IMG/VR virus record: IMGVR_UViG_3300020156_000012
Span: 1 to 42,667 of that record
Reading direction: 5' to 3' (one strand)
DNA: 42,667 bases
DNA from: a virus
Shown: piece after piece, positions 11,463 to 15,452 of the stretch
Layout: each line of letters opens with the position of its first letter
Numbering within the stretch: position 1 is the stretch's first letter
The notes under the pieces: generated by a model
Databases searched by the model: none
What the model was told of the DNA's origin: nothing
What the model saw: only the letters and a program-made list of their open reading frames with translations
Translations under genes and position numbers: made by a program

Positions 11463-12437
11463 ATGACCGCCTACTACAACGAGATCGACCCATACGCCGC
11501 TCAGTGGCTCCGCAACCTCATAAGCAAAAACCTCATCGCCCCAGGCGATGTAGATGAAAGGAGCATCGTGGATGTCCAGCCAGACGACCTCAAGAGCTAC
11601 AGCCAGTGCCACTTCTTTGCGGGAATTGGCGGATGGAGCCTCGCCGCACGAATGGCTGGTTGGCCAGACGATCGACCTCTTTGGACTGGTTCCTGCCCCT
11701 GCCAGCCATTCTCAGCCGCCGGAAAAGGCGAAGGCCAAGCGGACGAAAGACACCTCTGGCCAGTCTTCTTCTCACTCATCAGTGCCCGACGGCCCGATGT
11801 CGTCATGGGAGAACAGGTTGCGGCTGCGGTTGGAAAGGATTGGCTCGACGGAGTGCATTCTGACCTGGAAGGCATCGACTACACCAGCGGGGCAGCCGTT
11901 GTCCCGGCTTGTGCCGTCGACGCGCCCCATCGACGGGACCGCCTCTGGTTTGTGGCCCACCCCAACGCTTCCGAACGGGGGAAGGTCGATAGCTTGTGCG
12001 GACGAGTGGCGGGGCAACACGCCGTATCACAAGGGCAAAAAGCTGCAGGTGGACCTCGGCCAGGTCGTGAAGATGTCCATGTGGCCAACGCCGACATCTC
12101 TGGCGAAAGCAAAGGATGGGAACAACGAAGCGGGCAATTCAGCGGGATTGGTAGCAATTCGCGCGGCAGCGCTTGGATCGGAGCAGAATGGCTCCCAGGC
12201 GCAGACGGAAAAGCCAGGCGCTTTGAACCCGGCATTCGTCTCCTGGCTCATGGGGTTCCCGCCCGAATGGGAAAACTCCGCGCCTACGGAAATGCCATCG
12301 TCCCGCAAGTCGCGGCCGAAGTGATCGGGGCATATCTCGATCTCCACCCAGACAGCCCGTCCGCCCGATCCGCTCCGAGCTTTGATCCACTACTCGGATC
12401 GGGCGGACTACCGTTGGAGCAAGGGAATGAACAATGA
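11463..12437 (+). CDS. C5-cytosine DNA methyltransferase A
   Basis: This 324-aa protein has the C5 methyltransferase motifs in order: motif I FFAGIGGWS (51-59) for S-adenosylmethionine binding, motif IV GSCPCQPFS with catalytic Cys at ~80, motif VI GEQV (Glu ~117), motif VIII RRDRLWFVA (~157-165) and motif X YGNAIVPQVAAEVI (~275-288). The target-recognition stretch lies between VIII and X. It methylates cytosine C5 in a short, unknown sequence, probably protecting phage DNA or altering host gene control. SD AAGGA lies before the ATG. No cognate endonuclease is adjacent. Its interior also carries a long +1-frame ORF (11572-12324). Confidence 0.92.
   Translation: MTAYYNEIDPYAAQWLRNLISKNLIAPGDVDERSIVDVQPDDLKSYSQCHFFAGIGGWSLAARMAGWPDDRPLWTGSCPCQPFSAAGKGEGQADERHLWPVFFSLISARRPDVVMGEQVAAAVGKDWLDGVHSDLEGIDYTSGAAVVPACAVDAPHRRDRLWFVAHPNASERGKVDSLCGRVAGQHAVSQGQKAAGGPRPGREDVHVANADISGESKGWEQRSGQFSGIGSNSRGSAWIGAEWLPGADGKARRFEPGIRLLAHGVPARMGKLRAYGNAIVPQVAAEVIGAYLDLHPDSPSARSAPSFDPLLGSGGLPLEQGNEQ
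11572..12324 (+). CDS. putative overlapping-frame protein inside methyltransferase A (250 aa)
   Basis: This frame is +1 relative to methyltransferase A and open for 250 codons. ATG 11572 has AAAGGAG 8 nt upstream. The product is Ser/Thr/Pro/Arg-rich with DLFGLVPAPASHS, SWENRLRLRLERIGST, a LTWKASTTPAGQPLSRLVPS segment, repeated WPTPT motifs and, near the end, LNPAFVSWLMGFPPEW. The WPTPT/LNP..WLMG module also ends many phage C5 methyltransferases in their main frame, and similar stand-alone proteins are common in databases. The second methyltransferase has a related frame at the same offset. It could be a genuine dual-coded partner or a relic of an ancestral longer enzyme; not proven. Confidence 0.55.
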   Translation: MSSQTTSRATASATSLRELADGASPHEWLVGQTIDLFGLVPAPASHSQPPEKAKAKRTKDTSGQSSSHSSVPDGPMSSWENRLRLRLERIGSTECILTWKASTTPAGQPLSRLVPSTRPIDGTASGLWPTPTLPNGGRSIACADEWRGNTPYHKGKKLQVDLGQVVKMSMWPTPTSLAKAKDGNNEAGNSAGLVAIRAAALGSEQNGSQAQTEKPGALNPAFVSWLMGFPPEWENSAPTEMPSSRKSRPK

Positions 12438-13201
12438 CCGTATCAACCTCGGAAGACGAAAGCAGGAGGGGACCCCCGAATGTCAGATCAACCTCAGAAA
12501 TCGCAAAGCCGAATTTGATCGCCCCTGGTGACGTAGACGAACGGAGCATTGTGGATGTCCATCCAGACGACCTCAAGGGATATACTCAATGCCATTTCTT
12601 CGCCGGTATTGGCGGCTGGAGCTACGCCCTTCGCCTCGCAGGCTGGACCGATAGTAGACCTGTTTGGACAGGAAGTTGCCCCTGCCAGCCCTTTAGTAAG
12701 GCCGGCAAGAGAAACAGCGCGTCCGACCAGCGTCATCTTTGGCCTACATGGTTCGGCCTCATTGCAAAGCTCTCGCCTCCAGTTGTCTTTGGAGAACAGG
12801 TTCCGGTCGCGATTAAAGACCATTGGCTTGATGCCGTCGCTCATGACCTGGAAGAGGAAGGTTACGCCGTGGCGTCGGCCGTTCTTCCAGCTTGCAGTGT
12901 CGGCGCGCCTCATGCGCGAGACAGGCTATGGTTTGTTGCCGACCGTATCAGCGAGGGAGTGGAAGGACAGTTCGGCCGGCCGAATCCTGGCTCAGATGGA
13001 CAATGGCAGTGGCGTGGCGAAGCGGATCTGCAGACTATCTCCAACGCTCCAATCGAGCGTGGAGATCGTTGGCCTCAACCCATCATTCGCAGGGTGGATC
13101 ATGGGCTATCCGGCTGCGTGGGAAGACTGCGCGCCTACGGAAACGCCATCGTCCCGCAAGTCGCGGCGGAAGTGATCGGTGCATTCATGGAGGTTTCCTA
13201 A
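12434..13201 (+). CDS. C5-cytosine DNA methyltransferase B
   Basis: This 255-aa paralogue of the preceding gene overlaps its stop as ATGA. Motif I FFAGIGGWS (~55-63), motif IV GSCPCQPFS with Cys ~84, motif VI GEQV, motif VIII ARDRLWFVA and motif X YGNAIVPQVAAEVI are all present. The recognition region between VIII and X is about 60 residues, much shorter than in copy A. Specificity therefore probably differs or is reduced. The N-terminal segment (NLIAPGDVDERSIVDV) is nearly identical to copy A, pointing to tandem duplication. It also holds a +1-frame ORF. Confidence 0.9.
   Translation: MTVSTSEDESRRGPPNVRSTSEIAKPNLIAPGDVDERSIVDVHPDDLKGYTQCHFFAGIGGWSYALRLAGWTDSRPVWTGSCPCQPFSKAGKRNSASDQRHLWPTWFGLIAKLSPPVVFGEQVPVAIKDHWLDAVAHDLEEEGYAVASAVLPACSVGAPHARDRLWFVADRISEGVEGQFGRPNPGSDGQWQWRGEADLQTISNAPIERGDRWPQPIIRRVDHGLSGCVGRLRAYGNAIVPQVAAEVIGAFMEVS
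12555..13175 (+). CDS. putative overlapping-frame protein inside methyltransferase B (206 aa)
   Basis: The frame is +1 relative to methyltransferase B, the same offset as in copy A. ATG 12555 has GGAG 8 nt upstream, at the position equivalent to the alternative start in A. The product starts MSIQTTSRD (A: MSSQTTSRA) and shares DLFGQEVAPAS, a SLENRFRSRL helix, MTWKRKVTP, LLPTVSAREWKDSS, LNPSFAGWIMGYPAAW and a CAPTETPSSRKSR tail with A. This pattern recurs in phage and prophage proteins annotated as hypothetical or methyltransferase-like. Reality as a translated protein needs proteomics. Confidence 0.55.
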   Translation: MSIQTTSRDILNAISSPVLAAGATPFASQAGPIVDLFGQEVAPASPLVRPARETARPTSVIFGLHGSASLQSSRLQLSLENRFRSRLKTIGLMPSLMTWKRKVTPWRRPFFQLAVSARLMRETGYGLLPTVSAREWKDSSAGRILAQMDNGSGVAKRICRLSPTLQSSVEIVGLNPSFAGWIMGYPAAWEDCAPTETPSSRKSRRK

Positions 13202-14480: not shown

Positions 14481-14802
14481 TCCAGGCGCACAGTTTCACG
14501 CCTACCGGATGGCTGTTGATGGCCTGCCTATCGAGGCAATCGAGAATGCGGCCAGAGCCTACCTGCAAGGCAAGGTAAAGCGAGACGACAACCGTTTCGC
14601 CCCTTCCTGCGCAGAATTTGCAGAACGTTGCAGGGATGAGGCGAACATGATGGCAGCACAGCGCCGGCCAAGGATAGAGCCGCCGCCTGCGAAGCCCGAA
14701 GCCCCAAAGGTCAGCAAGGAAAAGATGGATCTCCTACGCCTTGCCATGAAGGGCAGCGAAGGCGCCAAGAGCAAGCTTAGAAAGATGGGTTACAGCATAT
14801 GA
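14401..14802 (+). CDS. putative replication-associated protein (133 aa)
   Basis: A helical protein with ALLSGFPTSSAIDP, then YRMAVDGLPIEAIENAARAYLQG and FAPSCAEFAERCRD, followed by a Pro-rich linker and a basic C-terminal helix. This organisation occurs in alphaproteobacterial phages right after replication genes. The 80-bp overlap with the preceding frame is large; a later start is possible but no better SD is visible. A helicase-loader role is a guess from position. Confidence 0.65.
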   Translation: MSRETSSREATTIAALLSGFPTSSAIDPGAQFHAYRMAVDGLPIEAIENAARAYLQGKVKRDDNRFAPSCAEFAERCRDEANMMAAQRRPRIEPPPAKPEAPKVSKEKMDLLRLAMKGSEGAKSKLRKMGYSI

Positions 14803-15452
14803 ACGCCGTTCAAGGATTCACCGAAGCAAACACCATCATCATAACCAATCCTCATATCGACGCTCTGAAGGCGGTGGAACTTTACCGCGACGGTGTTTCG
14901 CAGGAGAACATGGCCGTTGAATTGGGAATCACCAAGGACAGTCTCATCACCTTCCTGCGTCGAAACCCAGGAATTTTCCCAAAGAGGCCGCGTCCTCAAG
15001 GGGCATTGTCGCCATCGGATATAGAACGCGCCTCTTCCATGTGGAAAGCTGGCGCCGAACTCAAGGACATAGCTGCAAAATTCCGGGTAACGAAGAATGT
15101 TATCATCGGGCAAGCCAACTCAAACCGCGAACTCTTCCCGCATAGACGCCAGCCGACAGGGCAAAGGCCAAAAAGGGAACCCGTCGTCGTTCCGGTCAAG
15201 CGGAAAAAGACGCGCGGGAATGGCAACTGGAACACAAACCTGTTCGGTGTTGCCAAGTCCACCATAGCGAAAGACCCTAGCTACATTGCCGTAAAGACCG
15301 AGTACGACGCCGAGCGTATGAGGCACGCCAAGCCCCTTCATGAGCTGGAGGAATGCGAATGCCATTGGCCTCTGACGGATCGAGGCCCGTATCTGTTCTG
15401 CGCTGCAGAGGCTTCAAGAACATACTGCGACCATCACGAGGCGCGAGCATGA
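14799..15452 (+). CDS. GcrA-like transcriptional regulator (217 aa)
   Basis: Two tandem HTH-like units are seen at residues ~22-62 (AVELYRDGVSQENMAVELG) and ~72-118 (ASSMWKAGAELKDIAAKF). A basic linker follows, and a C-terminal ~35-residue module ends CHWPLTDRG...LFCAAEASRTYCDHH. That final pattern, with Trp-Pro and paired Cys/His, is typical of GcrA. GcrA is the alphaproteobacterial cell-cycle regulator that acts with sigma70 RNA polymerase at CcrM-methylated GANTC promoters. A phage copy near the end of the early operon could steer host polymerase or time later expression. Confidence 0.8.
   Translation: MNAVQGFTEANTIIITNPHIDALKAVELYRDGVSQENMAVELGITKDSLITFLRRNPGIFPKRPRPQGALSPSDIERASSMWKAGAELKDIAAKFRVTKNVIIGQANSNRELFPHRRQPTGQRPKREPVVVPVKRKKTRGNGNWNTNLFGVAKSTIAKDPSYIAVKTEYDAERMRHAKPLHELEECECHWPLTDRGPYLFCAAEASRTYCDHHEARA

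Follow-up and report, generated by a model that had tools for sequence, protein, structure and literature searches.

The locus described here raises the question of whether one stretch of phage DNA encodes two selected proteins in different frames and, if so, whether both belong to a single enzyme. The window (the whole stretch that was analyzed, 42,667 bases) is an entire IMG/VR virus record in which an integrase, a repressor, a RecT-like protein, a terminase, a portal protein, a major head protein and an endolysin were found; judged by this gene content, its source is a temperate tailed phage. A protein encoded at 14799-15449 (+) contains a GcrA cell-cycle regulator domain (PF07750, E 1.7e-9), which suggests an alphaproteobacterial host. 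Two C5-cytosine methyltransferase genes, designated “alpha1” (11463-12437, 324 aa) and “alpha2” (12434-13201, 255 aa), lie in tandem on the + strand, as do all features below, and the stop codon of the first overlaps the start codon of the second as ATGA. No restriction enzyme was recognized beside them when ten neighboring open reading frames (ORFs) were compared with Pfam and PHROGs.

Each alpha gene contains a second ORF in the +1 frame. The first, “beta1” (11572-12324), has 250 codons from its ATG at 11572 and is open from 11554; the second, “beta2” (12555-13175), has 206 codons from its ATG at 12555 and is open from 12537. A Shine-Dalgarno-like (SD-like) GGAG is located 8 nt upstream of each ATG, at 11560-11563 for beta1, inside alpha codons for a conserved ERS, and at 12543-12546 for beta2. 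The two products have in common the motifs MS-QTTSR, DLFG, TWK, LNPxFxxWxMGxP and PSSRKSR. All of these features (ORFs and coordinates, lengths, offset, GGAG spacing and common motifs) had been reported in the first-pass annotation, and each was found as described there.

Both alpha proteins match phrog_363 and PF00145 and contain the PCQ, E, RxR and GN motifs of this enzyme class. Alpha also gives a profile match to M.HhaI and a fold match to M.HhaI/HaeIII. The catalytic cysteine of motif IV (PCQ) is Cys80 in alpha1 (codon at 11700-11702; C80 and Q81 are invariant in 55 homologues) and Cys84 in alpha2 (12683-12685). Motif X of alpha1 (the GNAIVPQVAAEVI helix, 12288-12344) lies partly past the beta1 stop codon; alpha1 carries motifs I-VIII and X. 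Both beta proteins match phrog_1008. No match of beta to Pfam was obtained, and no solved structure for it was found by sequence or by fold, the fold query being a poor model. The beta segment LNPxFxxWLMGFPxxW is similar to motif IX and also matches the segment directly before motif X in a Streptomyces relative (L331), and on this resemblance motif IX would be located in beta. The segment is LNPAFVSWLMGFPPEW in beta1 (12223-12270; W225, L226, M227, P230 and W233 are each at least 90% conserved) and LNPSFAGWIMGYPAAW in beta2 (13074-13121). Note that the Pfam match does not extend to motif IX, even in single-chain relatives. Because the nearly invariant N-terminal YYNE..AA..LRNLI segment that precedes motif I in the family is absent from alpha2 (window 12434-12510), copy 2 may be impaired or may start differently.

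Homologous loci were gathered by scanning viral contigs and bacterial genomes, and 319 loci or records were analyzed, a set that includes the window and six phage records and in which some contigs are present twice. Beta overlies alpha at +1 in 319 of 319, including all 78 loci that were located through alpha alone; breaks or frame changes are also present in 10 of the 319. Of the 78 alpha-seeded loci, 69 have an open +1 frame across a fixed span (5.1 expected), and none has an open +2 frame there. When alpha codons were shuffled synonymously, the beta frame of copy 1 remained open in only 3.9% of shuffles and its profile score fell from 313 to about 143 bits; for copy 2, the corresponding values were 1.6% and a fall from 237 to about 110 bits. 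Across 191 representatives treated in the same manner, beta was open in a median of 1% and the median profile score fell from 259 to 110 bits. Since about 110 bits persist after shuffling across the family, the resemblance of the two beta proteins is in part a by-product of alpha conservation; the remainder is not. The shuffling results and the openness of the +1 frame reject chance or codon bias as its origin. The +1 frame is confirmed as a real gene under selection that has been kept across hundreds of phages.

Overlap-aware selection was assessed by counting differences in 83 independent pairs, with neighboring genes as controls. Sites were classified with two letters, where the first refers to alpha, the second to beta, “S” is synonymous and “N” is non-synonymous. 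The ratio SN/SS (changes silent in alpha and not in beta, relative to changes silent in both) was 0.43, versus 0.94 in controls, and for pairs that are 80-97% identical it was 0.28-0.30, versus about 1. Sites silent in both frames are scarce (440 in total) and limit this ratio; it was therefore backed by NN/NS, which is 0.27-0.28 in pairs 80-97% identical versus 0.73 in controls, and by four-fold sites, where change is 0.197 inside the overlap versus 0.340 before it. Beta is under purifying selection that is absent from the control genes. These tests apply at the level of the family, as copy 2 has too few close relatives to be tested by itself. Comparison of both frames across homologues had been proposed in the first-pass annotation, and neither frequent stops nor drift in the +1 frame emerged from it.

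Which frame is selected depends on the position in the gene. Alpha is tightly constrained across motifs I-VIII (NN/SN 0.12-0.25) but nearly free between motifs VIII and X (NN/SN 0.83-0.91, about 0.9 in close pairs), where close pairs show constraint on beta instead (NN/NS 0.33). Both frames are constrained in the final 60 residues, and the N-terminal part of beta is constrained as well in close pairs (NN/NS 0.41 versus 0.73 in controls). In bins of 20 residues, SN/NS declines from 13 to 2.7 over alpha residues 1-120, is 1.4-2.8 over 121-160, 0.4-0.9 over 161-240 and 1.1-1.3 over 241-280, and then rises to 6 after the beta stop codon, the control average being 2.7. Selection thus moves from alpha (motifs I-VIII) to beta (the variable region, 11943-12182 in copy 1, SN/NS 0.37-0.87 per bin), then to both, and returns to the alpha frame at motif X. 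This profile suggests that the target-recognition region is placed in beta. The AlphaFold2 model of alpha is confident at residues 1-170 and about 281-295 (pLDDT 91 at 281-290) and disordered between, with pLDDT below 50 at residues 173-236, which agrees with the hand-off of selection between frames. Modeled by itself, beta is poor (mean pLDDT 57) and is ordered only at residues 76-117 and in part of the C-terminus. Residues 76-117 of beta1 (11797-11922) are predicted to form a helix and a beta hairpin with pLDDT of about 84-94, and constitute the confident core of the protein. A fold search with the beta model gave no significant match, the model being too poor to inform.

The beta start codon is built from an aspartate codon of alpha, GAT, and the valine codon that follows it. 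Among homologues with aspartate at this position, GAT is used in 81%, versus 39% of all aspartate codons in the genes concerned. A start codon together with an SD-like site is present in 99 of 166 homologues, versus 26.4 expected from synonymous choice; the remaining 67 lack a recognized pair under the simple rule used. Internal initiation of beta is favored because the start and SD-like site are kept beyond synonymous expectation.

Taking these results together, we consider it very probable that a two-subunit C5-cytosine DNA methyltransferase is specified at each locus by a single DNA segment that is translated in two frames. Alpha, translated from its own start, would supply the AdoMet-binding catalytic domain (motifs I-VIII) and the motif X helix. 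Translation of beta would begin internally, in the +1 frame, at the GGAG/ATG inside alpha, and its product would provide the target-recognition region and the motif-IX-like end. By analogy with M.EcoHK31I, the two chains would associate into one active enzyme. The tandem arrangement would then yield two enzymes, probably differing in sequence specificity and having no recognizable partner nuclease, which most likely protect phage DNA from host restriction. The first-pass annotation had offered a split enzyme with part of it in another frame as an alternative to an overlapping partner gene. The split is supported, and the two descriptions refer to the same thing.

Other explanations can be set against this one. 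The +1 ORFs might not be genes at all, having stayed open and alike through alpha conservation and a codon usage that disfavors stops. The beta similarity that survives synonymous shuffling is what such an origin would leave, but openness, beta score, substitution counts and the frame switch all exceed shuffles or controls, and we give this possibility almost no credence. It is also unlikely, though less so than any other alternative considered, that beta is a separate protein, such as an anti-restriction factor or a regulator, rather than a subunit of the enzyme to which alpha belongs. Beta has neither a Pfam match nor a significant fold match, which would suit a separate protein. Against this, close pairs show alpha nearly free and beta constrained at the very place at which the recognition region of a C5 methyltransferase is required, the motif-IX-like end of beta is encoded just upstream of motif X of alpha, and in actinophage relatives the main chain or an adjacent split gene contains beta-like sequence.

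A further proposal is that frameshifting or slippage in alpha is the main source of the beta part, giving a fused chain of motifs I-VIII, recognition region and motif IX. It would account for the change of selected frame directly after motif VIII, which is also where an enterobacterial clade has a G-tract that, in its G7 form, joins the N-terminal part of alpha to the C-terminal part of beta. The copies in the window have no G-tract, however, the beta ATG and SD-like site are kept beyond synonymous expectation, and the N-terminal part of beta is also constrained in close pairs. We regard this route as improbable, somewhat more so than a separate beta protein, and programmed frameshifting is not favored as the main route to beta.

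The two-subunit reading has a precedent in M.EcoHK31I, an enzyme with the target YGGCCR. Its small gene is reported (Lee and coworkers, 1995) to be nested within the large one in a different frame, as the beta genes of the window are. In the published description, to which the window loci are likened here, the large subunit of M.EcoHK31I has motifs I-VIII and X, as alpha does, and the small subunit has motif IX (PMC3404938). The first-pass annotation knew of no described function for proteins such as beta; that statement does not hold, given this known division and the fact that beta belongs to PHROG 1008, labeled “DNA methyltransferase”. The recognition domain of M.EcoHK31I was predicted to be in the large subunit (PMC3404938), whereas selection places that of the window family in the small one; this difference is a point to test and no established correction. 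The window phage also differs in having two alpha/beta pairs in tandem. In M.AquI, another natural two-polypeptide C5 enzyme (PMC3404938), the small subunit carries motifs IX and X, whereas the window pairs keep motif X in alpha, and an AquI-type layout was rejected for them on this basis.

Nested PHROG 363/1008 pairs are annotated as two genes in Kagunavirus K1ind2, phage fTaEco01 and Paenibacillus phage Shelly, but these annotations do not call the two products one enzyme, and many public records annotate just one of the two frames. Pseudomonas phage PMG1 (L088:1328-2246) has beta alone annotated, and its alpha reading shifts frame near the N-terminus. Streptococcus phage MM1 orf13/orf14 (“C5 methyltransferase alpha/beta subunit”; L332:1303-2460 and 1454-1879) are annotated as nested, but PF00145 covers residues 1-381 of MM1 alpha, which is a complete methyltransferase, and MM1 beta does not match the beta profile of the window family. 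Furi 2019 gives an m5C target for a pneumococcal phage, and its searched passages do not discuss subunits. A literature search on overlapping methyltransferase genes in phages returned nothing specific, and papers on Paenibacillus phages do not discuss the internal gene.

The first-pass annotation had also proposed that an overlapping partner was kept through duplication. Shuffling and substitution counts bear out the selected overlapping gene, but not the duplication. On the family tree (FastTree), the path between alpha1 and alpha2 is 1.15 changes per site, with copy 2 on a long branch, and the nearest relatives differ (L001 at 92% for alpha1, L212 at 65% for alpha2). These distances lend no support to a recent duplication of the pair and mark the copies as distantly related. 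The overlap characterizes the family as a whole, and no special retention has to be invoked for two members that lie side by side. L130/L200 and L258 likewise have two pairs in one locus. Around motif X, about 49 bases (approximately 12280-12330 and 13128-13178) are near-identical between the copies, with 2 differences, as compared with 42-65% identity in the variable middle. These near-identical 3′ ends may reflect recombination between the tandem copies or a common constraint.

Actinophage relatives present a series of other layouts. Gordonia phage Phinally gp5 is a single chain with motifs I-VIII, an (L/F)PTP-rich stretch, a motif-IX-like segment and motif X. Camperdownii gp76/gp75 is split after motif VIII, with motif X in the second protein, and is AquI-like. 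The Streptomyces plasmid locus L331 has the IX-like segment and motif X in alpha, and its +1 ORF is weakly beta-like. This series would be explained if the recognition segment had been displaced from a once single chain; the direction is conjectural, as the tree is unrooted.

In one enterobacterial clade (L036-L070, L302 and L313; for example L059:3378), a poly-G tract is found directly after motif VIII, within the overlap. Both frames are open at G8 (about 20 loci) and at G11 (one locus), and both are shifted at G7 (L066, L302) and G9 (L056, L063, L067/L313, L069). In the G7 state, one ORF (L066:2751-3998) fuses the N-terminal part of alpha, with motifs I-VIII, to the C-terminal part of beta and resembles the single-chain order without motif X; in the G9 state, the N-terminal part of beta is fused to the C-terminal part of alpha. 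The tract looks like a phase-variable switch that acts on both subunits together, the alternative being sequencing error.

We judge the chances to be about even for a broader proposal, in which dual coding is obligate throughout the family, with catalysis (motifs I-VIII and X) encoded in one frame and both recognition and motif IX in the +1 frame, the arrangement having arisen from a single-chain ancestor by frame displacement, and in which the G-tract of the enterobacterial clade phase-varies both subunits. Judging from accessible papers, which exclude most subscription journals, this kind of enzyme was already known, and the near-universal dual coding, the frame hand-off, the likely placing of the recognition region in beta and the G-tract that would switch both subunits are apparently new.

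Two selected genes seldom overlap extensively on the same strand, and such cases are usually difficult to prove; in this family, the signal from hundreds of homologues is clear and reveals the selected frame point by point. One of the two parts of a common phage enzyme often goes unannotated, and cloning such a methyltransferase gene by one frame may yield an inactive or mis-specified enzyme. With its tandem pairs, the phage offers a convenient setting in which to ask whether recognition subunits are exchangeable.
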